IMG/VR virus record: IMGVR_UViG_3300027872_000031
Coordinates: 1-20,522 of that record
Strand: one strand, 5' to 3'
Origin: a virus
Length of the DNA: 20,522 nucleotides
Shown here: in pieces, positions 1,767 through 18,540 of the stretch
Numbering within the stretch: position 1 is the stretch's first letter
How the letters are laid out: each line of letters starts with the position of its first letter
The notes under the pieces: generated by a model
What the model saw: the letters and a program-made list of their open reading frames with translations, nothing else
Told to the model about the DNA's origin: nothing
The model's database searches: none
Position numbers and translations under genes: made by a program

Positions 1767-2243
1767 TCAGTGACTTAGGCCCTGTTTCTCCATAAGCGAG
1801 GCCAGCTTGGCAAGCAATAGCCTCTCCAAATCATCGGCCTTCATGTCTTGTTCACTCTTGTCCCCGGTTTGTTCACTGAATAGTCCAATGGCATTGGTTT
1901 TGCCTAGAGTCTCTAAGGCTCTGACCCGCACGTTCGGGGGGTTTTTGGGGTCCAAACTTTCCATCTTTAGACGTTCAATCACCAGTCTCCCTACAAGTCT
2001 GTGATACATAGATGCCCCATCCGAGCCGGTCAACTCCCGAAATCTCTTTTGGATCAATGGGTTATCCATCAACTCTGATGCTCGCTGTAAAACCCCGGCC
2101 TTTCTTAGATTGCCGGTATCGTACGCATCGGTAAAAGCCCTCACCATGTCCTTGTGCTCTAAAAGCCCTTGCATGAAGTGTTCTTGTTTCACTGTCAGTC
2201 TTGTCTCTCTGTCTCTCTCTTGTGGTCCTGATAGTTTCATCAT
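1767..2243 (-). CDS. terS: Phage terminase small subunit
   Basis: Terminase small subunits recognise the phage packaging site and deliver DNA to the large subunit. The product carries the characteristic N-terminal helix-turn-helix region: LTVKQEHFMQGLLEHKDMVR, AFTDAYDTG, then RASELMDNPLIQKRFRELTG at roughly residues 16-70, matching the Terminase_2-like pattern of an LT.kQe.f start and an NP.v....e end. The C-terminal part has an acidic helix (KADDLERLLLAKLASLMEK), consistent with oligomerisation or large-subunit contact. I chose ATG 2243 (158 aa), with GAGG 5 nt upstream; TTG at 2318 would extend it by 25 residues without a clear ribosome site. No large terminase gene follows downstream in the window. 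A structured noncoding region flanks it on both sides. Confidence 0.8.
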   Translation of the reverse strand: MMKLSGPQERDRETRLTVKQEHFMQGLLEHKDMVRAFTDAYDTGNLRKAGVLQRASELMDNPLIQKRFRELTGSDGASMYHRLVGRLVIERLKMESLDPKNPPNVRVRALETLGKTNAIGLFSEQTGDKSEQDMKADDLERLLLAKLASLMEKQGLSH

Positions 2244-2319: not shown

Positions 2320-2939
2320 CTGTCTGAAGGACAGAATAATAATCACTCTTTTAGAGTGGACTGGTCAAATTGTCCAACCAACCGACAACTTCATAGCCTT
2401 TAGCTATGGCCCGGTTTTCCGCCATTCTCGGCCTATATCTCATCAACCAACAGCCCTACGGGCTGTTGACAACGACAATTCAACCGGCTACCGTGGTCGA
2501 ACCGTCGAAATTGGCGGTCAGCGGTCAGTTTCACTTAGTATGGCGACGATCCCCAAGGGGAACCAAGCCGAAATCGGGCCGCAACAAAGACACTTTGTGT
2601 CCTTGGCTCTTTGACATTGTGAATATGGATCAGACCAGTCAGCATAGCTGATATGGGACGGTCAGCCTAGTAGTCTAGGCCAGACAAACCGGCGACGGTC
2701 GGCATTGCCCTTGGGCAATTCCAGATAGCCGATAAATCAGGTGCCTAAAGGCAAAAAGCGGCGGACCATAGGAATGCAAAGCATGACCCTGACGGCGATA
2801 GAATATGTCGCCGCAAAGCGGCACAAAGCTAAAGAATATTCAGCCATCGACTAGATGGCCAATGTGACCCTTTATAGGTCACATTGTACGTCCAGTCGGA
2901 CGACCTGCTAAAAAGCAGGCACCCTAACCTAAAAGGTTA
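2320..2939. other. Array of at least 16 short perfect hairpins in the divergent region
   Basis: Between terS (leftward) and the gene at 2945 (rightward) I find no convincing gene, but I do find a succession of small inverted repeats. Spans (stem bp): 2320-2334 (5), 2344-2358 (6), 2392-2408 (6), 2448-2468 (9), 2585-2605 (8 with one mismatch), 2639-2651 (5), 2665-2680 (6), 2704-2719 (7), 2742-2753 (5), 2774-2784 (4), 2810-2822 (5), 2843-2859 (6), 2860-2886 (10), 2889-2902 (5), 2904-2919 (6), 2925-2939 (6). The last five are almost contiguous. Many loops on the plus strand are A-rich (AAA, AAAA, AA). This suggests a plus-strand structured RNA leader or ncRNA, though a DNA site such as an origin or packaging region is equally possible. 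Confidence 0.6.
2925..2939 (+). promoter_or_regulatory. Hairpin that may sequester the ribosome site of the gene at 2945
   Basis: TAACCT, an AAA loop, then AGGTTA. The only Shine-Dalgarno-like bases before the ATG at 2945 are the AAAAGG at 2931-2936, which lie in the loop and 3' arm. Folding would therefore limit ribosome access (inference). It is the last member of the upstream hairpin array. Confidence 0.4.
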
Positions 2940-2944
2940 ATACC

Positions 2945-3415
2945 ATGACTACCACCGAAAAGGCTACGCTTTCCGACGAGTTTACAGCACTCGCTGGCCA
3001 TAAGGCCACAGTAACCAAGGGTTGCCGGAAATTCAATCCCGGCACTCAGTTGAGTGTTCGCAAGGTCGGCGTGAACCGATATGGCAAGCCTTATGCCATC
3101 GTCGTCACTAAGAAGGGTGACGAGTTCATTGATCCGAAGTGGCTCAAAATTGGCAAGGCACTGCCGGCGGCAACCATCGCAGCCTACGAAACCGCTGAAG
3201 AAGAGGCGCAGACTACCGTCATCTTGACGGCGGGCATCGCCTCCGAAAGCGAGAAGGGTATCTCGCTGAAGGTGGACGAATTTATGAAGCCCCGCTGGAT
3301 TAGCAAGAAGCTTGCTACCGAAGGCGACGAGGAAGGGACATATAATGTCCCGATGTGGTGGGCCACCAATGAGTTCGGCAAGGATTTTGCCGGCAACTTG
3401 CCCGAAGCGGCCTAA
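2945..3415 (+). CDS. Hypothetical phage protein, 156 aa
   Basis: Not recognised. The N-terminal half (about residues 15-75) looks beta-rich with conserved-looking Gly, Lys and Arg: GHKATVTKGCRKFNPG, VGVNRYGKPYAIVVTKKGDE. It could be a small SH3- or KOW-like barrel, but that is a guess from texture. The C-terminal half ends VPMWWATNEFGKDFAGNLPE. It starts at ATG 2945 directly after the hairpin array and is closed by a strong terminator, so it is probably a one-gene transcript. The codons are G/C-rich compared with the tiny genes downstream. Positions 3353-3380 contain a 28-bp block repeated exactly at 6383-6410. Confidence 0.75.
   Translation: MTTTEKATLSDEFTALAGHKATVTKGCRKFNPGTQLSVRKVGVNRYGKPYAIVVTKKGDEFIDPKWLKIGKALPAATIAAYETAEEEAQTTVILTAGIASESEKGISLKVDEFMKPRWISKKLATEGDEEGTYNVPMWWATNEFGKDFAGNLPEAA
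3353..3380 (+). repeat. 28-bp exact repeat, copy 1
   Basis: The 28 nt beginning ATGTGGTGGGCCACCAATGA are identical to 6383-6410. Here they encode MWWATNEFG near the C terminus of the 156-aa protein. The block contains the short palindrome TGGTG-GGC-CACCA. The match stops abruptly on both sides. Confidence 0.85.
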
Positions 3416-3422
3416 GTATCAA

Positions 3423-3449
3423 GGGGGGGCGAAAGCCCTCCCTTTTTTT
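3423..3449 (+). terminator. Intrinsic terminator
   Basis: An 8-bp stem (G7C pairing with GCCCTCCC, one G-U pair) with a GAAA tetraloop, followed by seven T. It lies 8 nt after the stop of the 156-aa gene. Confidence 0.9.
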
Positions 3450-3485
3450 GTCTACAATCCTAACCCTAGAATAAGGATACACAAC

Positions 3486-3668
3486 GTGAACACAATCGAT
3501 CAACACGTTGATCGTTGGGGAAACACTATATGGGTCGGCTTTTCCGGCTTAGAGCCTAAGAAGCTATGGTGTCACTCCTACCGGGCAGTCGCGCATTGGC
3601 TCAGTGTCATAGAAGCACGAGTGACCGGCGGCAAGCTATACGAGCCGGAAGATACCGACCCTGAATAA
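3486..3668 (+). CDS. Small hypothetical protein, 60 aa
   Basis: Function unknown. I start it at GTG 3486 because AAGGA lies about 8 nt upstream; the frame is open further upstream but only through the terminator and the previous gene. The product has a compact aromatic-rich sequence (RWGNTIWVGF, KLWCHSYRAVAHWL) and an acidic tail EPEDTDPE. It sits between two intrinsic terminators and so is probably its own short transcript. The GTG-AAC start resembles the gene at 4186. Confidence 0.55.
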   Translation: MNTIDQHVDRWGNTIWVGFSGLEPKKLWCHSYRAVAHWLSVIEARVTGGKLYEPEDTDPE

Positions 3669-3725
3669 CCTAAGAATGGGCAACACAAACGCCCACAACC
3701 CACATTTTCACTATTAACCAATCTT

Positions 3726-3754
3726 GGGATCGCCTTCGGGCGGTCCCTTTTTTT
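3726..3754 (+). terminator. Intrinsic terminator
   Basis: GGGATCGCC, a UUCG tetraloop, then GGCGGTCCC (9 bp with one G-U pair), followed by seven T. It ends the transcript of the 60-aa gene at 3486-3668. Confidence 0.9.
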
Positions 3755-3815
3755 GTCTACTTTCGGTCCAGCGCGAACCGGGCGATGCAAACATGACACA
3801 GCGCAAACATGACAG

Positions 3816-4185: not shown

Positions 4186-4461
4186 GTGAACATCATTGGA
4201 ATATATGGCGATCCGGCAGGCACACATAGACAACAACATTTAGAATTAAAACCTTTTTTCGATGATCTGTGCAAAGACTGCAAATATGATAAAGATAAAA
4301 TAAGACATTTAGTATCCTACGTATATGAAATTGATCTTGACGACACTGAAGATTATATTGTTGTCATACACGGCACTCTAAAAAAGATCACTTTCTTTGA
4401 CGTATTCCAAGGGGCATTACAGAATAAGGGTGATACACGTATTATCATACATACTCCATGA
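4186..4461 (+). CDS. Small hypothetical protein, 91 aa
   Basis: Function unknown. GTG 4186 is chosen because GGAG sits 6 nt upstream. The product starts MNIIGIYGDPAGTHRQQHLE, has an acidic middle (YEIDLDDTEDYIVVIHG) and ends GDTRIIIHTP. The alternation of beta-like and helix-like stretches recalls the paralogue pair at 17141 and 17507 (IV.I..., then ...ILS.PS), so it could be a distant third member. That is a weak impression. It is the first of the A/T-rich small-gene run. Confidence 0.55.
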   Translation: MNIIGIYGDPAGTHRQQHLELKPFFDDLCKDCKYDKDKIRHLVSYVYEIDLDDTEDYIVVIHGTLKKITFFDVFQGALQNKGDTRIIIHTP

Positions 4462-4481
4462 CCAGCTAGAGGACAGCAAAC

Positions 4482-4670
4482 ATGAAATTGACAAGGGTGA
4501 CAAAGAAGGCATACTCTAATTTCCTCGACAACCATCTGCTCGCAGACAGCGACACTAGGGGCAATGGTGTTGCCATGAAGCAGCATATCAACAGAAAGGG
4601 TCGTTTGATGGCTCAGGCTACCTATAGGGATGGGTGTGAGCCTGTCTTTCACATTATGGCAGCGGACTAA
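4482..4670 (+). CDS. Small basic hypothetical protein, 62 aa
   Basis: Not recognised. The product begins MKLTRVTKKAYSNFLDNHLL, is basic overall, and ends EPVFHIMAAD. AGAGGA lies 8 nt before ATG 4482. The stop codon TAA (4668-4670) sits in the loop of a small hairpin (CGGAC-TAAC-GTCCG, 4663-4676), immediately before the GTG start of the next gene. This may couple termination and re-initiation (inference). Confidence 0.55.
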   Translation: MKLTRVTKKAYSNFLDNHLLADSDTRGNGVAMKQHINRKGRLMAQATYRDGCEPVFHIMAAD

Positions 4671-4676
4671 CGTCCG

Positions 4677-4895
4677 GTGCCGAGAAATTGGGCCGATATT
4701 GTAGAAAAAGAAGAAAGAGAACGTGAGGCTGAACAAACTCGTATGGAGAAATACTATAGAAAGATATTACACATAACAGAACAAATCATTCCATTAAGCA
4801 CTGAACATGGCCCAGATTGTAATGGATGCAGAGGGGCAAAAAGAAGCGAAGAAAGAAGACTAGCGGTAGACATATACGAGATGATAGTGAAATGA
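4677..4895 (+). CDS. Tandem paralogue family, member 1, 72 aa
   Basis: First of four adjacent small genes sharing a layout: a short N terminus, a helix with R-M/I-x, a core resembling K(I/L)...(I)IP, a variable loop, and a terminal helix of the type (L)A.(D/E)IY.(I)I. Here this is RMEKYYRKILHITEQIIP ... RRLAVDIYEMIVK. The loop holds CNGC (residues about 49-52). The start is GTG 4677; an alternative is ATG 4743, which would remove the highly charged N terminus EKEEREREAEQ. The stop overlaps the next ATG (ATGA). Function unknown. Confidence 0.55.
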   Translation: MPRNWADIVEKEEREREAEQTRMEKYYRKILHITEQIIPLSTEHGPDCNGCRGAKRSEERRLAVDIYEMIVK

Positions 4896-5104
4896 CCATA
4901 GATGGATGGGGGTTAAAAAAAGAAAATTCTCATAAACAATTTGATAGGATGCATAGTGAAATGTGGCCAAAATTGTTGTCCACAGTACGAAATCAGATAA
5001 TACCAAAAACTCAACATATAATGCTTACATATGACGGCTATAAAATGACCAGTGGATATGTGCTGGCAAGAAGAATATGGGACATAATAGGTCACGAGAG
5101 ATGA
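4892..5104 (+). CDS. Tandem paralogue family, member 2, 70 aa
   Basis: Overlaps both neighbours by ATGA. It matches the family pattern: FDRMHSEMWPKLLSTVRNQIIP, then a loop with Tyr/Thr, then GYVLARRIWDIIGHER. The DRMHSEMWPKL segment matches YRIQDSFWYKL and FRMQDKLWAKV of members 3 and 4. It was translated from ATG 4892 in the frame ending at TGA 5102-5104. No known fold is recognised; predicted mostly helical. Confidence 0.65.
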   Translation: MTIDGWGLKKENSHKQFDRMHSEMWPKLLSTVRNQIIPKTQHIMLTYDGYKMTSGYVLARRIWDIIGHER

Positions 5105-5301
5105 GCGAAAATCCATACTTCAAGAATTATAAACCGGAAACCGTTAGTGACCATAAATATAGAATACAGGATAGTTTCTGGTATAAGCTACGTAGGATGG
5201 TAAGGCGTGAAATAATGCCATTGATGAATGAAAATGGTTCACCAGGTTCAGGGTATTACTTATCGAGAGAAATCTACCACCTGATAAAGAAAGACAAATG
5301 A
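5101..5301 (+). CDS. Tandem paralogue family, member 3, 66 aa
   Basis: Begins MSENPYFKNYKPETVSDHKY at ATG 5101, which overlaps the previous stop (ATGA). The family core is YRIQDSFWYKLRRMVRREIM, followed by a short loop of Gly/Ser/Pro and the terminal SREIYHLIKKDK. This member has the shortest loop of the four. Its stop overlaps the next start by ATGA. Function unknown. Confidence 0.65.
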   Translation: MSENPYFKNYKPETVSDHKYRIQDSFWYKLRRMVRREIMPLMNENGSPGSGYYLSREIYHLIKKDK

Positions 5302-5546
5302 AAAATACTAAAGATTGGGCTGCATTTTGGAATAAAGAAACAAATGAAGAACATAGTTTCAGAATGCAAGATAAACTCTGGGCAAAGGTAATACGATTAG
5401 TATTTGAACAGATGAAAGAAGATATGAAAATAATAGAAGGGCGCAGATGGCACCGCGATAACACTGGCAATGTTCTCCGAGGACCAAGCCCGTCATACCT
5501 ACTGGCGAAAGAAATATACGATTTAATAAGAGAGGACAGGGAATGA
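5298..5546 (+). CDS. Tandem paralogue family, member 4, 82 aa
   Basis: Starts at ATG 5298, overlapping the previous stop. The family core is FRMQDKLWAKVIRLVFEQMK, then a longer, Arg/Gly/Trp-rich loop, then YLLAKEIYDLIREDRE. It is closest to member 3 (RMQDKLWAK / RIQDSFWYK; AKEIYDLI / SREIYHLI). The N terminus is Trp-rich (DWAAFWNKET). Its stop overlaps the next small membrane gene by ATGA, so all four members and the membrane gene are probably co-translated. Confidence 0.65.
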   Translation: MKNTKDWAAFWNKETNEEHSFRMQDKLWAKVIRLVFEQMKEDMKIIEGRRWHRDNTGNVLRGPSPSYLLAKEIYDLIREDRE

Positions 5547-5686
5547 ATTACGCATTGGTCATATTTAATATATTCGTAAGTTTAATAAGAATGTATGAAG
5601 CCAACTACACTTTTGCAATACTACATCTAGGTATAGTGCTTGTAATCCTTTTGTTGGATGATTTTACCCGGAAGGTAATGAAATGA
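5543..5686 (+). CDS. Small membrane protein, 47 aa
   Basis: I translated this from ATG 5543 to TGA 5684-5686. The product has two hydrophobic stretches: residues about 3-15 (YALVIFNIFVSLI) and 24-38 (FAILHLGIVLVILLL), then a charged end DDFTRKVMK. It could be a one- or two-pass inner-membrane protein. It overlaps the last member of the four-gene family by ATGA. A role with those neighbours is possible but not shown. AGGGA lies right before the ATG. Confidence 0.55.
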   Translation: MNYALVIFNIFVSLIRMYEANYTFAILHLGIVLVILLLDDFTRKVMK

Positions 5687-5730
5687 AGAAAGAGATTACG
5701 CAAGGAAAAAGGTATGCGTCCAAGATTTAA
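5683..5730 (+). CDS. Possible tiny leader peptide, 15 aa
   Basis: ATG at 5683 overlaps the stop of the membrane gene (ATGA) and runs 15 codons to a TAA that lies inside the next gene. It begins MKKEITQGKR. It may simply be a re-initiation stop-over; coding status is uncertain. Confidence 0.2.
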   Translation: MKKEITQGKRYASKI

Positions 5731-5938
5731 AGACAAATGTCCGCACGGATTAAATGATTTCTTAACCACCATTAACAACAAAGATGTATATTGTATGTGG
5801 AGCAGGGATGAACTTTTTGCCTTTTGTGTGAGATATGGAAATAGCCAAAATGAATGTCATGAAATTAGAACGGATAGCGGGTTTTACTCACGCCTGATAA
5901 GAGGAATATATACGAATGAACAAAAAACTTTATCCTGA
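5714..5938 (+). CDS. Small Cys/His protein, 74 aa, paralogue of the gene at 5916
   Basis: The product contains KDKCPHGLNDFLTTINNKDV (residues about 6-25), then VYC...FAFCVRYG. The neighbour has DECNHG...T..YGKDIYN...VICIRYG, so these are tandem paralogues sharing C-x-HG, KD(V/I)Y and C(V/I)RYG. The Cys and His residues could bind a metal (inference). AAGGAAAAAGGT precedes ATG 5714. It overlaps the next gene by 23 nt. Function unknown. Confidence 0.6.
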   Translation: MRPRFKDKCPHGLNDFLTTINNKDVYCMWSRDELFAFCVRYGNSQNECHEIRTDSGFYSRLIRGIYTNEQKTLS

Positions 5939-6167
5939 TGAGTGTAATCATGGCACAAGTGCATATATGAACACAATGTATGGCAAGGACATATATAATC
6001 TACCGTCTCTTAAGGTTATATGTATAAGATATGGAAAAGAACATAATAAATATTATACAGCAGATATTTCTGCGGTATCAGATATTTTAACACATAAACA
6101 ATATGATTGTGCTCAACTAAAAATACTCGTAAGAATCATTCTTCAACAAGGAGAGCAAGATGGCTAA
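5916..6167 (+). CDS. Small Cys/His protein, 83 aa, paralogue of the gene at 5714
   Basis: Starts at ATG 5916 with AGAGGA about 10 nt upstream. It shares ECNHG, GKDIY and ICIRYGKEHNKYY with its upstream neighbour and has a longer C-terminal part (LTHKQYDCAQLKILVRIILQ). A/T-rich, with ATA and AGA codons. It overlaps the following basic gene by 8 nt. No family recognised. Confidence 0.6.
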   Translation: MNKKLYPDECNHGTSAYMNTMYGKDIYNLPSLKVICIRYGKEHNKYYTADISAVSDILTHKQYDCAQLKILVRIILQQGEQDG

Positions 6168-6375
6168 AAAACAAATTCGCAGTGGCGGTGGTCGGAAAAA
6201 AGGTCGGAACCTCAAAGGGTGCTTGACCTACAAAAACCGCCAGCAGAGAGAGAGAAACAAGGCGATCAAGATTGCCCGGCACTTGCGCCGTCACCCGGAG
6301 GACACTACGGCATTAAAGGCAATCGATCTTCTCCCCTTGACCTTTGCCAAGGCGGCTAAGAAAGCATACTCCTAA
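6160..6375 (+). CDS. Small highly basic protein, 71 aa
   Basis: ATG 6160 has a strong Shine-Dalgarno (AAGGAGAGCAAG). The N terminus is rich in Lys, Arg and Gly (MAKKQIRSGGGRKKGRNLKG), followed by RQQRERNKAIKIARHLRRHP and a more neutral end TFAKAAKKAYS. The charge suggests nucleic-acid binding, like other small basic phage proteins (inference). It is more G/C-rich than the genes on each side, as is the 88-aa basic protein at 733-999; a real relation between the two is not clear. Confidence 0.65.
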   Translation: MAKKQIRSGGGRKKGRNLKGCLTYKNRQQRERNKAIKIARHLRRHPEDTTALKAIDLLPLTFAKAAKKAYS

Positions 6376-6382
6376 TGGCAAA

Positions 6383-6410
6383 ATGTGGTGGGCCACCAAT
6401 GAGTTCGGCA
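6383..6410 (+). repeat. 28-bp exact repeat, copy 2
   Basis: Identical to 3353-3380. Here it lies between the basic gene and the start I chose at 6441. If the frame were instead opened at ATG 6375, it would be read in a different frame (CGGPPMSSA) from the first copy (WWATNEFG). It could be a remnant of recombination or a functional site. Confidence 0.85.
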
Positions 6411-6440
6411 TACCCTTGGCCTATTGGAAAAGGTATAGAA

Positions 6441-6581
6441 ATGAAACATTGGACCCCAGAGGATCACATATTATATATAAGACTTCTAAAACTGTTTGAA
6501 GTAACAAACGTAGTCACATCTTGGAAATGGGCCAGACATATCGTGAATGTAAATAAAACAGCAAGGAGAACATATGATTAA
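6441..6581 (+). CDS. Small hypothetical protein, 46 aa, paralogue of the gene at 6574
   Basis: Start at ATG 6441, with AAAGG about 7 nt upstream. ATG 6375 is in frame but lacks a ribosome site and would include the 28-bp repeat. The product begins MKHWTPEDHILYIRLLKLFE, continues through WKWARHIVNVNK and ends ARRTYD. The next gene has KKWNSADVKLYLALCKIL...WKWARHIVNVNK, so the two are tandem paralogues. The shared W-rich segment is identical at DNA level over 38 bp. The texture (W-[TN]-x2-D start, then helix) faintly recalls small Myb-like helices, but this is not a claim. Confidence 0.5.
   Translation: MKHWTPEDHILYIRLLKLFEVTNVVTSWKWARHIVNVNKTARRTYD
6520..6557 (+). repeat. 38-bp exact repeat, copy 1
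   Basis: The block from CTTGGAAATGGGCCAGACAT to TAAATAAA is identical at 6701-6738. It encodes WKWARHIVNVNK in both paralogues, while the rest of the two genes is strongly diverged. Confidence 0.9.
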
Positions 6582-6771
6582 TTTAATGACATCTCTAGGT
6601 TCGCTTGGAATGACACAGAAAAAGAAATGGAATAGTGCCGATGTGAAACTGTATCTAGCCCTCTGTAAAATACTTCTAACAAAAACAGATGTACGTTTGG
6701 CTTGGAAATGGGCCAGACATATCGTGAATGTAAATAAATACAACAAGGAGCATAAACATGAAGCCAAGTGA
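6574..6771 (+). CDS. Small hypothetical protein, 65 aa, paralogue of the gene at 6441
   Basis: ATG 6574 has an excellent Shine-Dalgarno (AAGGAGAACAT). After an N-terminal extension (MINLMTSLGSLGMTQKKK), the product matches its upstream neighbour: KKWNSADVKLYLALCKILL, then WKWARHIVNVNK, then a charged tail KEHKHEAK. It overlaps the MoxR gene by 14 nt, so it is probably co-transcribed with it. Function unknown. Confidence 0.6.
   Translation: MINLMTSLGSLGMTQKKKWNSADVKLYLALCKILLTKTDVRLAWKWARHIVNVNKYNKEHKHEAK
6701..6738 (+). repeat. 38-bp exact repeat, copy 2
   Basis: Second copy of the 38-bp block at 6520-6557, in the same reading frame of the downstream paralogue. The block also ends near the Shine-Dalgarno of the following gene, so part of its function could be at RNA level. 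Confidence 0.9.
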
Positions 6772-7819
6772 AGTTACCAAGTTGATCGAAGAAGTTATCA
6801 AGCACAACATACAAATGTATGCGGCGGGAAAACATCACCGTGACTACATCGTTCCCATGATTTGGGGACCACCGGGGGTTGGCAAAACAACCATGCCTCG
6901 TAACATCGCAGCCGATCTTGAAATCCCCTGCCGCACAACCATCGTTGCTCAATATGATGCGGGAGAATTTGCCGGGTATCTCATGCCAGATGAAGAGAAC
7001 AAAGTCATGGTTCGTTACAAGCCTGACTTCCTTCCCGATGGCAAGCCCGACAAGCATGGCAAGTTGCACGAACCGATCAGCCTATGGCTTCTCGATGAAC
7101 TGCCACAGGCCGCTGTAGCCCTTATGAACCTCTGCTCGCAGATCACCAACGAGTATCGTCTTGGAGAGCACAGGCTATCACCGGGATGCACCATTATCTG
7201 TACTGGCAATGATGTGAAGCATCGTGCCGGAACCAATCAGATGCCGACCCATCTTAGGGACAGGCTGATGCATATCGAAGTCGATGTTGACTACGAAGAA
7301 TGGATCAAATGGGCGAATATAAACAAAGTCGATCCCACAATCACAGCCTACATTCGGCGTAACCCGGCATTCTTGTCAGAGTTCAACCCCGATCTGAGGT
7401 CATGTCCTTCTCCCCGATCTTGGGCGAAGGTCGGTGCCATACTGAGTATGAACTTGGACAAGCATCTTCGTGTCATGGCAGTAAGTGGTTTTATCGGTGA
7501 AAACCATGCATCGCAGTTCGAAACGTACATGAGGGTCTATGATGAAATGCCTGACCCTGCCGATGTAATCGCCAACCCCATGAAGGCGCCAGTGTTTGGT
7601 ACCGGCAAAGAGGACATTCTTATTCTCCTGTTGGCACAGGTAGCCTCATTAGCTACCAAGAAAAACTTCGGAAATATCGTCAAGTACATCAATCGCCTGC
7701 CTCAACAGGAGTTCGCCATGTACTGCATCATGGATGCACAACAGCGGAACCCTGATGTTCTGGAAACCAACGCCTTCATGGAATGGGCGAAAACCAACGG
7801 CGCTGATCTACTGATGTGA
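6758..7819 (+). CDS. MoxR-type AAA+ ATPase
   Basis: A 353-aa AAA+ ATPase of the MoxR type. MoxR proteins act as chaperone-like ATPases that remodel or activate partners, often together with a VWA-domain protein. Visible motifs: Walker A GPPGVGKT (residues 37-44), Walker B LWLLDELPQ with Asp113/Glu114, sensor-1 TGN (149-151), and an arginine-rich THLRDRLMHIEVD (164-176) typical of the MoxR arginine-finger region. AAGGAG lies 8 nt before the ATG. It opens a gene set with a DUF3150-like protein and a metallopeptidase/VWA protein downstream, and probably works with them. Codons are G/C-rich relative to the small genes before it. Confidence 0.85.
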   Translation: MKPSEVTKLIEEVIKHNIQMYAAGKHHRDYIVPMIWGPPGVGKTTMPRNIAADLEIPCRTTIVAQYDAGEFAGYLMPDEENKVMVRYKPDFLPDGKPDKHGKLHEPISLWLLDELPQAAVALMNLCSQITNEYRLGEHRLSPGCTIICTGNDVKHRAGTNQMPTHLRDRLMHIEVDVDYEEWIKWANINKVDPTITAYIRRNPAFLSEFNPDLRSCPSPRSWAKVGAILSMNLDKHLRVMAVSGFIGENHASQFETYMRVYDEMPDPADVIANPMKAPVFGTGKEDILILLLAQVASLATKKNFGNIVKYINRLPQQEFAMYCIMDAQQRNPDVLETNAFMEWAKTNGADLLM

Positions 7820-7823
7820 TTGC

Positions 7824-7839
7824 ACTCGCTAAAGCGAGT
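7824..7839 (+). repeat. Pre-start hairpin
   Basis: ACTCGC-TAAA-GCGAGT lies between the MoxR stop and the gene at 7860. Six perfect base pairs (seven with a 2-nt loop) and no T-run. It has the same size and position relative to the next start as the other pre-start hairpins here. Confidence 0.5.
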
Positions 7840-7859
7840 TTCTGAAAAGAGACCCCCCA

Positions 7860-8090
7860 ATGAGAAGCAGAGCAATAAGACGACACCATAAAATAAGAAT
7901 GCGGCTCAAAGCCAAACGACTGCTTACTCATTGGGGCTATCCTCCTGAACATATTGTTATGTGTATTCGGGGTGATACTTTCTCAGCCAGAACCATCCAA
8001 TACGGCAGTTGCTCATGCTGGCTGTGTCAAAACCAGCGTAAATCAGAAGGACCAACTAGGAAAGAAATGGAGCAAGACGACTATGAGTGA
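7860..8090 (+). CDS. Small Cys-rich basic protein of the CSCWMC type, 76 aa
   Basis: The product has a basic N terminus (MRSRAIRRHHKIRMRLKAKR) and the segment YGSCSCWLCQNQRKSEGPTR near residues 48-67. Small bacterial and phage proteins with the pattern CSC-x-MCGNPR...T.QE are common in databases; from memory this is a divergent member. Its function is unknown; the three Cys residues suggest metal binding. It lies between MoxR and the DUF3150-like gene and overlaps the latter by 8 nt (TATGAGTGA). Confidence 0.65.
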   Translation: MRSRAIRRHHKIRMRLKAKRLLTHWGYPPEHIVMCIRGDTFSARTIQYGSCSCWLCQNQRKSEGPTRKEMEQDDYE

Positions 8091-8949
8091 TATCAGAAAA
8101 AAGGCAATGATCGTTAAATTACGCATGTCTCGGTGGGGAGCAACCAAGACAGATGTTATCTTGGGACAGCGTGTCGCCAAGTCACAAGATGCGAAAATCG
8201 GCACCGTCAAAACCATCAAGCTACTCATGCCAGAATTCAACTCGGCGTTTCACCGGCTTAACAACATATGTCGGTTTGCCCGCAAAGAACACAACATAAT
8301 GACGTTCCCCGGTCTGTCAAAGGGTGAAAGTATTCTCAGCGGCAAGATGTTTATTCGCTACACAACTGTCCTCACTGGATTGCAGAGTGAATTCTATTCA
8401 GCAGTCAATACGTTCCGTGATACATATCCTGAAATCAAAAGGATGGCACCGGAACGGATGGGAAAGATGTATAAAGAGACTGACTTCCCGGCTGTCAACG
8501 AAATCGCCAACTACTACACATTTGACATTGATCGCATTCCCATGCCAACAACTGATGATTGGCGTATGGACGATGTGAGTGAAGAAAAACTAGAAGAAAT
8601 GAAAGTCGATGTTGAAGAGCAACTGAGAATTGTTTACAACAATTGTCACATGGAAGTTTATAGCCGTATGGCAGAAATCCTTGGTCGCCTGTCCGATCAG
8701 GCAAAATCATATAAGGGCGGCCATGCTCCCGGTGGTGGATTACGTCAAGCCCTCTTTGACGATCTTGCGGAGATTTCAAACGTACTTCCTCTCCTGAACA
8801 TGGAAGACGATCCTGTGATAAACATGATCGCCTCAAGGATCAAGACTGATATCCTTCCAGTAGAGCCAGAGGACATACGCAAGAATAGTGATTTGAGGGA
8901 CCAGATTGCCAAACTCACAGATGATCTATTGGAGAAGGTGAAAAAATGA
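8083..8949 (+). CDS. DUF3150-like protein, 288 aa
   Basis: Starts at ATG 8083 (MSDIRKKAMIVKLRMSRWGA), with GGAG about 10 nt upstream; the frame is open further upstream but only through the previous gene. It is largely helical and charged, with FPGLSKGESILSG and a Gly-rich GGHAPGGGLRQALFDDL in the C-terminal third. By position between a MoxR ATPase and a VWA protein, and by its W-G-x-T-K-x-D start, it looks like the DUF3150 family found in such phage and mobile-element sets. The family call is from memory. It is probably a partner or substrate of the ATPase. Confidence 0.6.
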   Translation: MSDIRKKAMIVKLRMSRWGATKTDVILGQRVAKSQDAKIGTVKTIKLLMPEFNSAFHRLNNICRFARKEHNIMTFPGLSKGESILSGKMFIRYTTVLTGLQSEFYSAVNTFRDTYPEIKRMAPERMGKMYKETDFPAVNEIANYYTFDIDRIPMPTTDDWRMDDVSEEKLEEMKVDVEEQLRIVYNNCHMEVYSRMAEILGRLSDQAKSYKGGHAPGGGLRQALFDDLAEISNVLPLLNMEDDPVINMIASRIKTDILPVEPEDIRKNSDLRDQIAKLTDDLLEKVKK

Positions 8950-9227
8950 TAGAATACCCTTGGATAGAACATCAATTTGAATACATGAGTATGACGGGTG
9001 TTGTGAATGTTCTTGAAAGATGCCTAAGAAAAGAAAAAATAGTTAACGCATATTTTGCAAGAATTGAAAACATATATGCAATGAAAGACCTTAATAAATC
9101 TGGGATTATATTAATACATAAACATGGAAGACGTGACATAGATCATACTGTCACTTATTCCAAAACAGATAAGACATTACTATATGTTGGTATATTAACA
9201 GCACTAACAAAGATGGAGAAATTATGA
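8946..9227 (+). CDS. Small hypothetical protein, 93 aa, paralogue of the gene at 9224
   Basis: Overlaps the DUF3150-like stop by ATGA. The product begins MIEYPWIEHQFEYMSMTGVV. Its layout (acidic N terminus with P.IE, a central beta-rich stretch, and a hydrophobic C-terminal helix LLYVGILTALTKM) parallels the next gene's product. The resemblance is modest, so paralogy is likely but not certain. A/T-rich and AGA/ATA-rich, unlike the large genes on both sides, so the pair looks inserted into the MoxR/VWA set. Confidence 0.6.
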   Translation: MIEYPWIEHQFEYMSMTGVVNVLERCLRKEKIVNAYFARIENIYAMKDLNKSGIILIHKHGRRDIDHTVTYSKTDKTLLYVGILTALTKMEKL

Positions 9228-9511
9228 CAGACTTCCCACCCATTGAAATAAACATTGACACCTACTGCCCTGTCAAAAGATTAATAGGTATCATCAATAG
9301 CGACCGTGATAATATCGTTGGATTTGAATATTCAGAGAATACCAGTGCATTCAAATCATGGATAAAAAAAGGATATTTAAAGAGAACAAAAATATTAGAA
9401 TGGGACAATAGAATATCATTCGAAAGAACAGAAACGACATACATTCTCACAAGAAGTCTCAACATCCTTCTTCAATACACCAGAATAACAGGAGAGTTCC
9501 ACTATGACTGA
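9224..9511 (+). CDS. Small hypothetical protein, 95 aa, paralogue of the gene at 8946
   Basis: ATG 9224 overlaps the previous stop by ATGA; its own end overlaps the VWA gene by 8 nt. The product starts MTDFPPIEINIDTYCPVKRL and has KKGYLKRTKILEWDNRISF and TYILTRSLNILLQYTRI. It aligns with its neighbour over P.IE, a central Lys-rich strand region and the terminal hydrophobic helix. No known family recognised. Because it lies between MoxR partners and is translationally coupled, a link to that set is possible. Confidence 0.6.
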   Translation: MTDFPPIEINIDTYCPVKRLIGIINSDRDNIVGFEYSENTSAFKSWIKKGYLKRTKILEWDNRISFERTETTYILTRSLNILLQYTRITGEFHYD

Positions 9512-10697
9512 AATCGATATCGTTGCAAAGGCAAAGGCCACACTGCTGACCCAACGCAAGCCATTCTATACTGTTTGTGCAATGCGGCTCAAGTTTGTAG
9601 CAATCACCAAGGACGATCCACGATCCAAGCAATTCCAGTTTCAGACAATGGCTACCGATGGTGCCAGAATTTATTATAACGTCGAGTGGACAGAAAAACT
9701 AACAAAAGAAGAAGTCATCGGTGTGATCTGTCACGAAATCCTGCATGTAGCCCTACTCCATCCATTGCGGCTATTCGGAAAGCATATGCTAGTCTGGAAC
9801 TTTGCCACAGACTACGCCATCAACCAGATGCTCACAGACGATAACTTCCAACTCCCAAAAGGTGGTCTGCAAGACGACAAATACCGTAGCTGGAATTCAG
9901 ATAAAATCTACAACGAACTCATGAAGGACGTAAAGAAAATAACAAGTAGCAAGGGTGGCAAGGGTAAAGATGGCAAGGAAGGGCCGGAATGGGGGCAGAT
10001 CGTTGCTCCAATGGATGAAAACGGCAAGCCATTATCGCAAGCTGACATTCGCGGCCTTGAAATTGAAACGAAAATCTTGGTTCAGTCGGCAGCGGAGGCG
10101 GCAAAGGGAATTGGCAATCTTCCCGGTGCAATTCAGGAACTTGTCGATAAGTACACAAACCCGGTGGTCAACTGGCAGGATTATCTGCCCAAATGGTTAC
10201 TCGGTTCCCAGCCTGACGATTATACGTGGAGAAAGCCCAACCGCAAATACATGGTTCCCGGTAAGCCAAAGATTTTCATGCCGTCAGTCGATCACCGTGG
10301 CAGCGGTAATGGTGTCTTCTATATCGACACTTCTGGCTCTGTATCGACAAAGGAACTGCAACGGTATCTCTCCGAGATTGTCGGAATTATCGAGGAATGC
10401 GACCCCGAAACCCTTCTTGTCGTGCCGTGTGATACGGAGGTCAAAGGTCCGTTCAAGTGGGTTCCCGGTGATACCTTGACTGAGATAAAGGTTGAAGGAC
10501 GGGGAGGAACCCGTGTCACTCCAGCCTTTGAATGGGCGCATAAGCACCACGATGAAGTCATTGACTGGGCAATATATTTTACTGATTTGGAAGTCAGTGA
10601 TTTCCCCGAAGAACCCAATTACCCAGTATTATGGCTTTCCACTGGTCAAGAAAATGCACCGTGGGGTAACGTAATCAAATGCAGGCGAGAACAATGA
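9504..10697 (+). CDS. Metallopeptidase-like plus VWA-like domain protein (DUF2201/COG3864 type)
   Basis: A 397-aa protein with two parts. The N-terminal half carries VICHEILHVALLHP, a zincin-type HExxH with His77, Glu78 and His81, typical of the DUF2201 N-terminal domain. A Lys/Gly-rich linker (about 144-160) follows. The C-terminal half has VFYIDTSGSVSTKEL with DTSGS (275-279), the MIDAS motif of VWA-like domains, plus GGTRVTPAF and a later YFTDLEV. In known families this protein pairs with a MoxR-type ATPase. Whether it cleaves proteins or acts as a metal-dependent scaffold is not known. GGAG sits about 9 nt before the ATG, which overlaps the upstream gene by 8 nt. Confidence 0.85.
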   Translation: MTEIDIVAKAKATLLTQRKPFYTVCAMRLKFVAITKDDPRSKQFQFQTMATDGARIYYNVEWTEKLTKEEVIGVICHEILHVALLHPLRLFGKHMLVWNFATDYAINQMLTDDNFQLPKGGLQDDKYRSWNSDKIYNELMKDVKKITSSKGGKGKDGKEGPEWGQIVAPMDENGKPLSQADIRGLEIETKILVQSAAEAAKGIGNLPGAIQELVDKYTNPVVNWQDYLPKWLLGSQPDDYTWRKPNRKYMVPGKPKIFMPSVDHRGSGNGVFYIDTSGSVSTKELQRYLSEIVGIIEECDPETLLVVPCDTEVKGPFKWVPGDTLTEIKVEGRGGTRVTPAFEWAHKHHDEVIDWAIYFTDLEVSDFPEEPNYPVLWLSTGQENAPWGNVIKCRREQ

Positions 10698-11356
10698 TGA
10701 ATAGAAAGACCCTTGATAGAAGGGGAAAAATACAAGAATATAAAATAGTAAAAGAATATTGCAAACTAATGTGTAACTTGTGGTTAGAAAATAACAAACT
10801 AATTACAACAAGGGCCACGTCGATTTTTCCAGAACTACACTGGATGTTTAGGCATGTTCAGGAATATAGGGCTTCTCTCAAACTTGTGGAAAAAACAGGT
10901 TACTATGTAAAGTTTCAGCCACAGATAGAAGCAGAATTTAAACAACTATTGCCCGGACGTTACTGGAACCATAAAGTACAAATAGATGTTGGTCCTAAAA
11001 TATTCTTTCGCAATGACAAAAAAAGATATCCCGGCGAACATAGAAAAGCCAATATAACATTGGTTTTAAGACCGTCATATATAAAGAACGTCATTGAAGG
11101 TATTGGCAGGGGAAACATAGATAACAAATTCATTCTGAATGCAAACAGAATAAAAATAAACAATGACAACATAGAAATATTTGAAATACAATACGCTAAT
11201 ATTTATGATGATACTGAAATATCTCATGGCTACTTGTCAATGACAAATAACAAACAATTCTACAAAATGAAACCAACGTTTGGAGAAGCTGTGAAGGCAG
11301 GACAATCCTCAATAAAAAGCTACGTAAAGGAGACAATCAAAAACAGCACCGATTGA
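10694..11356 (+). CDS. Hypothetical protein, 220 aa
   Basis: Starts at ATG 10694 (MMNRKTLDRRGKIQEYKIVK), overlapping the VWA stop by ATGA, with AGGCGAGA upstream. It is basic and rich in Asn, Ile and Lys: a helical N-terminal half and a beta-like middle (KVQIDVGPKIFFRNDKKRYP, ANITLVLRPSYIKN). The codons are strongly A/T-biased compared with the VWA gene just before it. No family recognised. It is the last gene of the MoxR/VWA operon before a likely new promoter. Confidence 0.65.
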   Translation: MMNRKTLDRRGKIQEYKIVKEYCKLMCNLWLENNKLITTRATSIFPELHWMFRHVQEYRASLKLVEKTGYYVKFQPQIEAEFKQLLPGRYWNHKVQIDVGPKIFFRNDKKRYPGEHRKANITLVLRPSYIKNVIEGIGRGNIDNKFILNANRIKINNDNIEIFEIQYANIYDDTEISHGYLSMTNNKQFYKMKPTFGEAVKAGQSSIKSYVKETIKNSTD

Positions 11357-11381
11357 CATACCAATTTTTATCAGCTAAATC
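11353..11381 (+). promoter_or_regulatory. Likely sigma-70-type promoter before the ParB-fold genes
   Basis: A perfect -35 TTGACA (11353-11358) and, after exactly 17 nt, TAAATC (11376-11381) as a weak -10. The -35 box overlaps the stop codon of the previous gene. The next ATG is at 11408. Confidence 0.45.
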
Positions 11382-11407
11382 AGCCATATTGGCAACAGGA
11401 GAAAAAA

Positions 11408-12268
11408 ATGATGAAATCTTCCCCTATAACGATCACCCCAAACAAAGCAATGGAAATGCTTGGGTCACAGATCGTAAACAGAAACCTTTCTGAAGGACTT
11501 ATCTTGCGATACGCAAGGGATATGAAGAAAGGGAATTGGGACGAGAACGGACAGACCATCATCGTATCCGATAAGGGTGACTTGATAGATGGACAACACA
11601 GGCTCCATGCTTGTGTCAGATCCGACACGGCGTTCCGAACGATGGTAGTAAGAGGCGTTGATGAAAGCGCCAAGCTGACCATCGACAGTGGCAAGAAGAG
11701 AAGTTTTGCCCACCAACTGCAAATGGCAGGGCATACCTACACCAACCATATCTCGGCCACAACCCAAGCAGTGTATCACATCCTTGCGGGATCAACTGCT
11801 GCGAAACTCACCAACCATGAAATGCAGAAGGTTCTGGATAGATACCCAGATATCGTAACCAGCACTGCACTCTCTATGAGCCAGAAAGCCATAGTCCCAC
11901 AACCAAGTATTCTAGGGGCTGTTCACTTTTTGGCAGCACACTTCCTGTCAAAAAAGGATAGCTTTGAAGGGCAGGACATGGCCGGTGAATTCCATAGGGT
12001 ATTCTACACCGGAGTACCCTTCTATGAGCCAGATCGTAGCAGAGCAAGGCACAAAAAAGACCCTGCTCATGTCTGGAGAGAGCGTCTCATAAGGATCACA
12101 ATGAAACCTCACGTAGCAATACCAAGAAAGTCAGTCATTGATGGGACTGTTCATGCTTGGAACCTCTTTATTGAAGGAGAAAGAACCTCGAACTTCAAAA
12201 TACCGGAAGACCCCAAAATGAATGGGCTTCCAAGTCTGAAGAAGATCAGAATGGACTTCAGCGACTAA
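11408..12268 (+). CDS. ParB-like N-terminal domain protein, 286 aa
   Basis: Contains a ParB/Srx-fold signature: ITPNKAMEML, the helix LILRYARDMKKGNW, GQTIIVSDKGDLIDGQHRLH with DGQHR at residues 61-65, then a strand and VVRGVDESAKLTIDSGKKRS. In the ParB fold the DGxHR loop binds nucleotide. In phages such proteins are stand-alone regulators or nucleases of unclear role rather than true partition proteins. The C-terminal 180 residues look helical and are not recognised. AGGAGAAAAAA precedes a double ATG (11408/11411). No parA is adjacent. The following gene carries another ParB domain of a different subtype. Confidence 0.75.
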   Translation: MMKSSPITITPNKAMEMLGSQIVNRNLSEGLILRYARDMKKGNWDENGQTIIVSDKGDLIDGQHRLHACVRSDTAFRTMVVRGVDESAKLTIDSGKKRSFAHQLQMAGHTYTNHISATTQAVYHILAGSTAAKLTNHEMQKVLDRYPDIVTSTALSMSQKAIVPQPSILGAVHFLAAHFLSKKDSFEGQDMAGEFHRVFYTGVPFYEPDRSRARHKKDPAHVWRERLIRITMKPHVAIPRKSVIDGTVHAWNLFIEGERTSNFKIPEDPKMNGLPSLKKIRMDFSD

Positions 12269-12399
12269 ACCATTGTGGTAAGCGTGAGCCGCCCCGTCCG
12301 GTAGTACGGAATTTAGGCTTGATCTCATGCTTGGAAACTCTGACCGGGGAGCCACTAAACTAGAAGAAACGCATAGCGTTTCGTATGAGAGGAACGATC
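12269..12399 (+). promoter_or_regulatory. Leader with hairpin element (copy C) before the ParB/MT-A70 gene
   Basis: A 131-nt gap. A long-range CCCCG (12292-12296) / CGGGG (near 12345) pairing encloses smaller hairpins. Then GAAACGC-ATA-GCGTTTC (12366-12382, 7 bp) is followed by GTATGAGAGGAACGATC and the ATG at 12400. The tail GTATG-GAG matches the elements at 3832, 3892 and 13826. The Shine-Dalgarno AGAGGA lies directly after the hairpin. Confidence 0.5.
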
Positions 12400-13470
12400 A
12401 TGAACACAAAAACAACAATGCCAAAACTGAAAGTCAACCCAGACATTCAGCAATTCTTGGATGGTCCCCGTGACGAAGAAAATGAAGTTCTGGAAAAGAG
12501 CATCGTCACTCAAGGTGTCAGGGATGATATCATCGTATGGGACAAAGACGATACCATTGTCGATGGACACAACAGATGGACTATATGTCTAAAACATAAC
12601 ATTGTCCCACCCGTCAGGAGACTCAGTTTTGTTGACGAGGAAGCCATCAAGGACTGGATACTTGAAAACCAGTTAGGCCGAAGGAACCTGACACCCAACA
12701 GGTTCTTGGATTACCTCGGCACCCTCTACAATCGACAAAAGGGAGGCGTCAAATCGGAAAAAGAACTGGTTGAAAAACTCGCCAAGAAGGCCGGTGTGTC
12801 TGAAAAGACCGTAAGACGATCCGGGGAGTTTGCCGATGGCGTTAATGCCCTTGATAAAGTCTTGGGCAAGTTGGAAAAAAACGCCGCTCTTACCGGTAAA
12901 TCCGAACTCACCAAGGAGGAAATTCGTGAGGTTGGAAAGGCGAAAACACCGGCTGCGGTCAAAAGGACCGTTGAAATCGTTAAAGAAAGGGCTGCGGTCA
13001 AGAAAAAAGCCAAGGCTAAAGTCAAATCAACAGCCAAGGCCAAAATCAAATATGAAGTGGTTGTTGCCCAGCCCGATTTCGACAAACGTGCCCTTCAAGA
13101 CCTCAAAACCACACGACCGGCAACCAGTGACAATTCCTGCATCTTCATGATCGTACAAGACTACAATCTCGGAGAGGCCATGGAGTTGTTGAAAGCATGG
13201 GGCTTCCTCTACGAAGCCTCGTATGTTCTCATCGAAGAAGGAAGGCAGGACAAATCGAACTGGTCCGTCCTGAAACATACGTACCTTCTCATCGGCAGTA
13301 AAGGCATCGTCGGTGGTCCTACTTCGGGGAATGAACCATCCAGCACCATAAGAGCGGCCAATATCGTTGATGGAGTGTTCAACGCCATCAAGGACTTCCC
13401 TCTCGTCAAAGACGCGAAAGAGAAGCTGGTTATCAATGCCGGTACTCGGACTGGCTGGATTTCTGCATGA
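12400..13470 (+). CDS. ParB domain fused to a degenerate MT-A70-like methyltransferase domain
   Basis: A 356-aa fusion. Residues 1-110 carry a ParB-type domain with DGHNR (55-59) and ILENQLGRRNLTP (88-100), a signature of phage and mobile-element ParB/MT-A70 proteins. Residues about 115-200 look like a helical HTH part (KAGVSEKTVRRSGEFA), then a Lys/Ala linker. Residues 218-356 follow the MT-A70 adenine methyltransferase pattern: YEVVVAQPDF, the strand CIFMIVQDYN, LLKAWGFLYEASYVL, LKHTYLLIGSKG and a final TRTGWIS. The catalytic DPPW of active enzymes is replaced by AQPD (223-226), so the domain is probably inactive and may bind DNA, S-adenosylmethionine or a partner. AGAGGA sits 6 nt before ATG 12400. 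Confidence 0.75.
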   Translation: MNTKTTMPKLKVNPDIQQFLDGPRDEENEVLEKSIVTQGVRDDIIVWDKDDTIVDGHNRWTICLKHNIVPPVRRLSFVDEEAIKDWILENQLGRRNLTPNRFLDYLGTLYNRQKGGVKSEKELVEKLAKKAGVSEKTVRRSGEFADGVNALDKVLGKLEKNAALTGKSELTKEEIREVGKAKTPAAVKRTVEIVKERAAVKKKAKAKVKSTAKAKIKYEVVVAQPDFDKRALQDLKTTRPATSDNSCIFMIVQDYNLGEAMELLKAWGFLYEASYVLIEEGRQDKSNWSVLKHTYLLIGSKGIVGGPTSGNEPSSTIRAANIVDGVFNAIKDFPLVKDAKEKLVINAGTRTGWISA

Positions 13471-13489
13471 TAGATTATTCAATATGGGT

Positions 13490-13504
13490 GGCGCTCAAAG
13501 CGCC
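13490..13504 (+). repeat. Pre-start hairpin
   Basis: GGCGCT-CAA-AGCGCC, six perfect pairs, just upstream of GGAAGGG and the ATG at 13521. No T-run, so it is unlikely to terminate transcription. Confidence 0.5.
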
Positions 13505-13520
13505 GCCCGGAAGGGTTCCT

Positions 13521-13802
13521 ATGAGCAATGAGAATGAAATTGTTCTTCGTGTTCGTGCCATGAAGGCTCTTGACCAAAACCAAGAGATTGTTGCGGTCAA
13601 GATATTTGATATAGATGATGATACAAAGCTAGGCATAAGAATAGACAGAAAAGAAGACATATTCAGCAATAATTCAGTCTACATAGTGTCAAAGTTCAAA
13701 TATAGAAACGACAATTGTGGAAACTGGTACAACTATACCAACAATAGAACCCATACCATAATTGGAATTACCAAGAAAGGTGGATTTATACCCTTAAAAT
13801 AA
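13521..13802 (+). CDS. Small hypothetical protein, 93 aa
   Basis: Start chosen at ATG 13521 because GGAAGGG lies 6 nt upstream; in-frame starts further upstream would run through the hairpin. The product begins MSNENEIVLRVRAMKALDQN, continues with beta-like segments (IVAVKIFDIDDDTKLGIRID) and ends ITKKGGFIPLK. No family recognised. Its first third is G/C-balanced and its rest A/T-rich. It is followed by another hairpin element and a second small gene. Confidence 0.55.
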   Translation: MSNENEIVLRVRAMKALDQNQEIVAVKIFDIDDDTKLGIRIDRKEDIFSNNSVYIVSKFKYRNDNCGNWYNYTNNRTHTIIGITKKGGFIPLK

Positions 13803-13811
13803 ACCAGAAGA

Positions 13812-13856
13812 AACGAAACCTAGAAAATCGCAATAGCGATTGTATGCGAAGGAACT
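13812..13856 (+). promoter_or_regulatory. Hairpin element, copy D, before the gene at 13861
   Basis: CGAAACCTAGAAAATCGC leads into AATCGC-AATA-GCGATT (13826-13831/13836-13841), then GTATGCGAAGGAAC and the ATG at 13861. The CCTAGAAA before the stem and the GTATG after it match copy A at 3816-3865 almost base for base; the stem sequence differs but the pairing is kept. Confidence 0.55.
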
Positions 13857-13860
13857 GAGC

Positions 13861-14169
13861 ATGACCACAAAACCACACCTACAGCCGTTAACTGAAAACC
13901 TCATGATCATCAAGATTGAGGATAACGGCATTAACAAGCGTTCGGGATTGTTCCACGACACCGAAGGGAAATTACTGGCGTACTTCAGCGACGGTAAATT
14001 GTCCATCAGTAAGGACAATGACGAATCAGTCGTCATCAAACTCCCGAAAGAATACATCACCAGAACAAAGAAAATAGTTGAGTCTGGAGAAATCGAGAAT
14101 GGTGACGAAGGCTTCATCACCGACATTGTAAAGATCATTGGAGTAAAATCAAAAATACTTAACCAGTGA
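13861..14169 (+). CDS. Small hypothetical protein, 102 aa
   Basis: ATG 13861 has AAGGA 7 nt upstream. The product begins MTTKPHLQPLTENLMIIKIE and has a repetitive strand-turn texture (GLFHDTEGKLLAYFSDGKLS, SVVIKLPKEYIT) that suggests a small beta sheet, then an acidic loop and VKIIGVKSKI. No family recognised. It follows repeat element D directly, so its expression is probably governed by the same unknown mechanism as the other genes carrying that element. Confidence 0.6.
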   Translation: MTTKPHLQPLTENLMIIKIEDNGINKRSGLFHDTEGKLLAYFSDGKLSISKDNDESVVIKLPKEYITRTKKIVESGEIENGDEGFITDIVKIIGVKSKILNQ

Positions 14170-14176
14170 GATTAAA

Positions 14177-14308
14177 ATGAGTAGCATGGAGGACATAAGA
14201 TTAATAGGGCTAGTAATAATACTACTAGTCCTATTAGTCATTTCCGGGCAAATGAACATATTTATCTGGAATATACGTAAACAGATCAAAAAATGGAGAG
14301 ATAAATGA
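14177..14308 (+). CDS. Small membrane protein, 43 aa
   Basis: I translated this from ATG 14177 to TGA 14306-14308. Residues about 8-23 form one strongly hydrophobic helix (RLIGLVIILLVLLVIS), followed by QMNIFIWNIRKQIKKWRDK, whose positive end would stay in the cytoplasm. It overlaps the phosphoesterase start by ATGA, suggesting translational coupling. Small one-pass proteins of this kind are common in phages; the role is unknown. The ribosome site is weak (GTGAGATTAAA). Confidence 0.55.
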   Translation: MSSMEDIRLIGLVIILLVLLVISGQMNIFIWNIRKQIKKWRDK

Positions 14309-17106: not shown

Positions 17107-17125
17107 CACCGCCTCCAGTCAAAAG

Positions 17126-17153
17126 AGAATAACTGATTCCATGGGTAATTCAA
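17126..17153 (-). promoter_or_regulatory. Possible promoter for the primase-helicase
   Basis: On the minus strand TTGAAT (17148-17153) and TATTCT (17126-17131) are 16 nt apart. Each matches its consensus box at four of six positions. The pair lies partly inside the start of the divergent gene at 17141. Confidence 0.25.
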
Positions 17154-17491: not shown

Positions 17492-17506
17492 GAGAAGGCA
17501 ATGACA

Positions 17507-18072: not shown

Positions 18073-18105
18073 TTGACAAACAAGGATAAGTAGGGCAAAA
18101 GAGAA

Positions 18106-18143: not shown

Positions 18144-18161
18144 CAACTCTAGGCACAAGAA

Positions 18162-18374: not shown

Positions 18375-18389
18375 AGAACCGGTCCACCA

Positions 18390-18509: not shown

Positions 18510-18540
18510 GCGTCTTTTTTGAAGCCTATGGAGGAAGACT

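Follow-up and report, generated by a model that had tools for sequence, protein, structure and literature searches.

In this study, we examined a dense array of small hairpins beside the terminase small subunit gene (terS) of a phage represented by the window, the entire 20,522-nt IMG/VR record, classed linear. The array does not stop at the noncoding gap where it begins: it runs through the adjoining rightward gene up to an intrinsic terminator, and hairpin islands occupy the same place in three independent relatives with terS divergent beside a homologue of that gene, G001 (L103), G002 (L104), and L113. We judge it about evenly balanced that 2320-2944 forms the leader of an RNA-level hairpin island, with an early mRNA kept pervasively folded, local pairing under selection, and short single strands as the probable use. 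More tentatively, and with rather less confidence than that, we suggest an undescribed strategy of DNA phages, whereby early operons would be recoded as strings of hairpins, with selected overall pairing, turnover of individual stems, and protection from host RNA-targeting or terminating factors. Our literature search, partial in its coverage, returned no description of such a hairpin island in a DNA phage.

Hairpins in the Divergent Gap

The gap measures 701 nt between leftward terS and the rightward gene at 2945 and, as the initial annotation had it, separates leftward from rightward transcription. The start of terS was taken as the likely ATG at 2243, the mechanical open reading frame extending to a TTG at 2318; homologues of terS are present in G001, G002, G003, G005, and G006. 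The open reading frames that overlap this region (2201-2614 and 2406-2651) match no PHROG or Pfam family. A tRNA search of the hairpin region found none, and an Rfam search gave no family above the curated threshold, which agrees with the remark that no named element fits. The features of this part are as follows.

1767..2243, - strand: terS (terminase small subunit), which bounds the gap on its left (PHROG 1595, E 4.9e-8; PHROG 51, E 6.8e-6)
2320..2944, + strand: hairpin-dense untranslated stretch, probable leader (hairpin count, fold z -9.0)
2320-2334, 2344-2358, 2392-2408, 2448-2468, 2584-2598, 2639-2651, 2665-2680, + strand: perfect hairpins within 2320..2944
2704-2719, 2810-2822, 2843-2859, 2860-2886, 2889-2902, 2904-2919, 2925-2939, + strand: further perfect hairpins within 2320..2944
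2843..2939, + strand: five nearly contiguous hairpins directly before gene 2945, the densest part (hairpin count, local z)
2925..2939, + strand: hairpin TAACCTaaaAGGTTA, ending 5 nt short of the start codon, with the likely Shine-Dalgarno AAAAGG in its 3' arm (comparison with L104 and L113)

Counting perfect, non-overlapping hairpins with loops of 3-7 nt in 2320-2944 against dinucleotide-preserving shuffles (n=300), we found 19 with stems of at least 4 bp (8.0 in shuffles, sd 2.2), 14 with at least 5 bp (2.3, sd 1.4; maximum 8 among the 300 shuffles), and 10 with at least 6 bp (0.54, sd 0.68; maximum 4). The earlier figure of at least 16 hairpins therefore hinges on 4-bp stems, about eight of which are expected by chance, while 10-12 hairpins lie well beyond chance. 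When both strands were folded, the comparison that the initial annotation had proposed, the + strand as RNA reached -231.2 kcal/mol (z -9.0) and the - strand as DNA z -7.5, neither equaled by any of 20 shuffles, with a local z of -8.2 for 2776-2925. Stem excess and folding on both strands confirm the array. The last five hairpins are indeed nearly back to back, the final one stopping 5 nt short of the ATG at 2945, and stem sequences are unlike throughout, as had been noted; so are those of the loops. Elsewhere in the window, a second noncoding stretch, 1276-1500, is also significantly structured (z about -4) and includes the GC-rich hairpin CAACCCCCGGctctgCCGGGGGTTG.

Extension through the Adjoining Gene

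The hairpins had been thought to be limited to the divergent gap and to end where gene 2945 starts, which proved too early. Stems of at least 6 bp occur at 16.0 per kb in 2320-2944 and still at 11.9 in 2945-3450, up to the terminator, then at 3.2 in 3451-3760 and 1.7 in 4301-20522; coding sequence is thus included here, as are kilobases of genes in the relatives. Gene 2945-3415 has 6 such stems, against a mean of 0.85 and a maximum of 4 in 200 codon permutations, while no clear excess over codon permutation is seen in the window's genes for the ATPase and the VWA protein, and 2945-3450 folds with z -3.7.

2945..3415, + strand: gene of 156 aa, function unknown, hairpin-rich (homologous in G001, G002, and L113)
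2977-2993, 2995-3008, 3043-3056, 3081-3099, 3216-3230, + strand: hairpins in gene 2945
3248-3267, 3301-3317, 3335-3351, 3356-3368, 3376-3392, + strand: further hairpins in gene 2945
3421..3451, + strand: strong intrinsic terminator (core 3421-3444), end of the array (10-pair stem then T run; density falls from 11.9 to 3.2 per kb)
3726..3754, + strand: second intrinsic terminator, probable end of a small transcription unit, 3487-3668 (stem and T-run scan)

Structure prediction for the gene-2945 protein was of low confidence (pLDDT 67), and a fold search with that low-confidence model gave no significant match. The second terminator carries a 17-nt exact repeat of the tail of the first, and a promoter scan of the window recognized none. 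We considered terminators as an identity for the hairpins at large and rejected it: only those at the array end combine a GC-rich stem with a T run, and terminator-like sites in relatives show no excess over shuffles (5 versus 5.5 and 6 versus 5.5). A near-identical 38-nt stretch (89%) occurs at 3343-3380 and 6373-6410, 3 kb apart and in different reading frames.

The Phage and Its Gene Order

The window encodes a MoxR-type ATPase, a VWA/DUF2201 protein, ParB-like proteins, a leftward primase-helicase, and RusA, in a gene order matching that of the 65-kb phage Pag-Yong1, the nearest isolate. Its ATPase and VWA protein have relatives in Roseobacter phage CRP-7 and in gp24 and gp25 of N4-like phages. 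An alphaproteobacterial host is suggested by a small gene of the relatives, which has homologues in phages of Rhizobium, Sinorhizobium, Agrobacterium, and Rhodobacter, and from the gene order we infer that the island genes are early. The window also has a perfect 38-nt direct repeat (6520-6557 and 6701-6738, 181 nt apart), a 25-nt repeat that is 96% identical across 13 kb (5439-5463 and 18422-18446), and, at 4826-5546, tandem small open reading frames that are seemingly diverged copies of each other. In G002, at about 51.0-57.5 kb (L124:7001-13507), a leftward open reading frame that the end of the contig truncates, with 2168 aa or more, matches the giant PHROGs 14770, 616, and 10691, of unknown function. 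Three records, L004 (OL906435), OQ594354, and PP438419, are named as phages of different cyanobacteria, yet all are 65,014 bp long and have an identical primase; at a GC content of 68%, the more likely host is a heterotroph contaminating the cultures.

Hairpin Islands in Related Phages

Relatives were found by alignment-based IMG/VR scans, the queries being alignments with distant homologues; single-sequence IMG/VR searches with gene 2945, the ATPase, and the VWA protein found no relatives, and a gene-1 search of bacterial and archaeal genomes gave no match. G003 is a 99.99% copy of G002 over this stretch, and contig 3300045886_000134 carries G002's proteins. The effective sample is four lineages (the window, G001, G002, and L113), all metagenomic contigs. 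The same locus in related phages, where the initial annotation had proposed to look, holds an island in all three independent relatives, with 14.3 (G001), 17.7 (G002), and 15.9 (L113) stems of at least 6 bp per kb against a background of about 2. These islands measure 2-2.6 kb and cross several consecutive small genes, with stems of 6-11 bp and loops of mostly 3-5 nt. Mean gaps between hairpins are 36-44 nt in these three and 36-51 nt for the rightward islands, with one hairpin about every 40-60 bases; fold z of the rightward islands ranges from -10.8 to -20.2. Among 165 loops, 50 are of 3 nt and 74 of 4 nt, and the commonest loop sequences occur 7 times. The leftward arm in relatives is thinner (9-13 per kb over terS and its neighborhood), and in G002 the center of the divergent gap is without such stems. 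Over the whole contigs of G001 and G002 the island forms a single sharp peak that nothing else approaches; that of G002 ends at its only strong rightward terminator, L104:4818-4850, beyond which density is 1.9 per kb.

Genes within the relatives' arrays have about 2 to 12 times the stems of their codon-permuted versions. The HNH gene in the L113 island, a member of a widespread family, has 7 stems while eight homologues from other phages have 0-1; structure goes with position in the island, not with gene ancestry. Across 185 fetched loci, many of them overlapping, the densest kilobase holds 13-17 stems of at least 7 bp in the clade's rightward islands, at most 7 elsewhere, and 5 in the window, whose array is weaker than those of its relatives. 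The proposed link in mechanism between the window and these relatives rests on position, gene homology, and a common excess of perfect stems. In Pag-Yong1 a short cluster, six hairpins within 170 nt, immediately precedes the first early gene, but the wider region, on a GC-rich background, is only weakly structured (z -4.2 sense, -6.1 antisense). We rejected the array as a trait of N4-like phages at large, since N4, ort11, and RHph_X2_28B are without it, and as one shared by every phage that has the VWA gene or the MLNIGT-type small gene, only the window's clade being strongly dense.

Conservation and Turnover of Stems

The initial annotation held that what is kept is the pairing. This stands as a regional property and for intergenic cassettes; hairpin by hairpin it fails, as in-gene orthologous stems mostly turn over. 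Across orthologues, paired positions within genes survive no better than slid controls, and in the pooled in-gene stems the frequency of double compensatory changes does not exceed that of such controls. Aligned places within genes mostly lack a matching hairpin between phages; density is thus kept while individual stems are replaceable. A few in-gene sites do covary in three phages (CGTCCtttgGGACG / CATCCtttgGGATG / CATTCtttgGAATG). Compensatory change, suggested earlier as a check, was found for the hairpin at 2925-2939, which recurs at this position in L104 and L113, both sides having changed in two of its six pairs (three sequences, weak statistics); no other stem of 2320-2939 could be matched in relatives.

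In the relatives, a covarying cassette is repeated before most small genes of the island. One intergenic cassette, GAAATTGCATG-[hairpin]-GCGGGCAATTTCGCCC...GAGGAGCC, occurs seven times in L104 and L113 together; 98% of its cells are paired and 12 of 17 pairs show double compensatory changes, versus 3.4 when shuffled; a second helix, excluding the outer stem, is also fully paired. Copies lie at L113:4372-4419, L113:4941-4989, L104:3017-3083, and four more places, before a GAGGAG ribosome site, and the mutually exclusive covarying helices are GAAATTGC/GCAATTTC and GGGC/GCCC. This RNA-like cassette might represent a separate family of phage riboregulators. The two-hairpin cassette of G001 differs, its second stems of about 11 bp being unlike in all four copies, yet paired; at L103:2790-3857 a GAAA-loop hairpin, the hairpin with the variable stem of about 11 bp, and then GAGGAG precede four G001 genes.

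RNA, DNA, or Mutation

Read in the presumed transcript sense, stems with a single G.T number 28 against 7.4 expected, and those with a single A.C 14 against 8.1 (z 3.6), the pooled islands including two that are 66% identical in shared genes. Leftward arms agree when read leftward (5 versus 1), and Pag-Yong1 has no G.T preference (5 versus 12). This bias favors RNA, because DNA hairpins and strand-blind mutation predict no difference between G.T and A.C. G.U pairs are rare for structured RNA (48 of 1132 pairs, before chance subtraction), antisense strands fold about as well as sense strands, and 175 of the 217 stems counted are perfect, the other 42 having one mismatch. A first impression, that such strict Watson-Crick pairing points to DNA, was tempered by the G.T excess in the wider count. 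GNRA-like loops are also frequent in transcript sense (11 versus 2); they are not main evidence, because several stem from paralogous cassettes. Template switching, in which one arm is copied from the other, would be expected to concentrate changes in a single arm; the asymmetry of changes between arms is 0.328, against 0.337 in the control (26 hairpins, low power). From the G.T bias and the absence of concentration in one arm, we therefore place RNA-level selection first, with DNA hairpins and mutation behind; among the options listed earlier (a multi-hairpin RNA, a long 5' leader, a protein-binding array, or a DNA site), the first two are best supported.

That the hairpins work as DNA, extruded under supercoiling or when single-stranded and recognized by shape as N4 early promoters are, or used in replication, genome entry, or packaging, seems to us unlikely. 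The gene order related to N4-like phages speaks for it, as do the nearly all perfect Watson-Crick stems and a DNA strand that folds far better than shuffles. In N4 (Schitoviridae), early promoters of the virion RNA polymerase are three small hairpins of conserved sequence (PMC4496689), with a 5-7 bp stem, a 3-nt loop, and a common sequence from -17 to +1 including a GC-rich heptamer centered at -11. The islands likewise have small hairpins where the early region of a related gene order begins, but by the dozen, mostly inside genes, and with unrelated stems that lack that common sequence; stems are of 6-11 bp, and 50 of 165 loops are of 3 nt. N4 itself, ort11, and RHph_X2_28B have no array, a PF00940 RNA polymerase was not found in eight related records by a model that scores the N4 virion enzyme at just 10 bits (G002 does have the giant open reading frame noted above), and the bias of G.T over A.C would be unexpected. 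Rather improbable, too, is a mutational origin, with local template switching perfecting functionless near-palindromes, as proposed for the mitochondria of Nematomorpha, where coding palindromes have arms of up to 142 bp; the arguments used there, dominance of perfect stems and fast turnover (PMC6649704), apply here, with 175 perfect stems against 42 with one mismatch and individual hairpins quickly replaced. The two systems share perfect inverted repeats in functional genes, rapid gain and loss, and few imperfect copies, but the phage arms measure 5-11 bp, are densely packed within a single operon region, and are present in noncoding cassettes as well. Mutation alone sits poorly with the lack of concentration of changes in one arm (at the low power stated), the strand-sense G.T bias, the sharp coupling to transcription units, and covarying cassettes kept beside each gene. 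We consider it very improbable that ordinary cis-regulation, with separate attenuators, translation leaders, or terminators each serving its own gene, explains the whole: it fits the hairpin that covers a Shine-Dalgarno and the relatives' leader cassette with two mutually exclusive, fully paired helices, whereas density is equally high inside reading frames, terminator-like sites in relatives are no commoner than in shuffles, and individual in-gene sites are not conserved.

A Proposed Early Transcript Kept Folded

The reading that we prefer, selection at the RNA level, is supported by the way in which the array stops, in L104 as in the window, at an intrinsic terminator. The early operon beside terS would be written so that its transcript, translated and untranslated alike, folds into near-continuous small perfect hairpins. 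Selection would act on the amount of locally paired RNA and not on particular hairpins, so that these would be gained and lost at a steady density. Most likely, this would serve to keep single-stranded stretches short, leaving little for factors that need unpaired RNA to act on, candidates being RNase E-type decay, host mRNA interferases, RNA-guided defences, and, on the long untranslated leader, Rho; both transcription as one early RNA and the identity of these factors we infer. Ribosomes could still melt stems of 6-11 bp, and the hairpin before the start codon may have an added local role in covering the Shine-Dalgarno.

In some positive-strand RNA viruses, genome-scale ordered RNA structure (GORS) extends over the full genome, and pervasive structure of coding RNA in RNA viruses has been linked to host RNA sensing. 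As in GORS, folding energy in the islands lies far below that of controls (shuffles, codon permutation) through coding sequence, and overall structure is kept while individual pairs are not; unlike GORS, the host of the trait is a DNA phage, the structure is bounded to one region of 1-2.6 kb per direction, and it is made of very short perfect hairpins. In early mRNAs of phage T4, secondary structure protects RegB sites from the ribonuclease (PMC3014915), a precedent for structure shielding phage mRNA sites from an RNase, although the T4 structures are local and at single sites, whereas here a continuous string of hairpins passes through genes.

If true, pervasive structure that a DNA phage limits to its early region, and imposes even on a gene of a widespread HNH family, would imply that some host activity targets early phage RNA where it is unpaired. 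A clean test is possible, because the same phage's unstructured neighboring genes provide an internal control. If the cause lies instead in DNA or in mutation, these phages would offer an uncommon natural example of densely packed palindromes under constant renewal in apparently functional genes. Either way, the islands illustrate the extent to which recoding for local pairing can go in genes without loss of their open reading frames.
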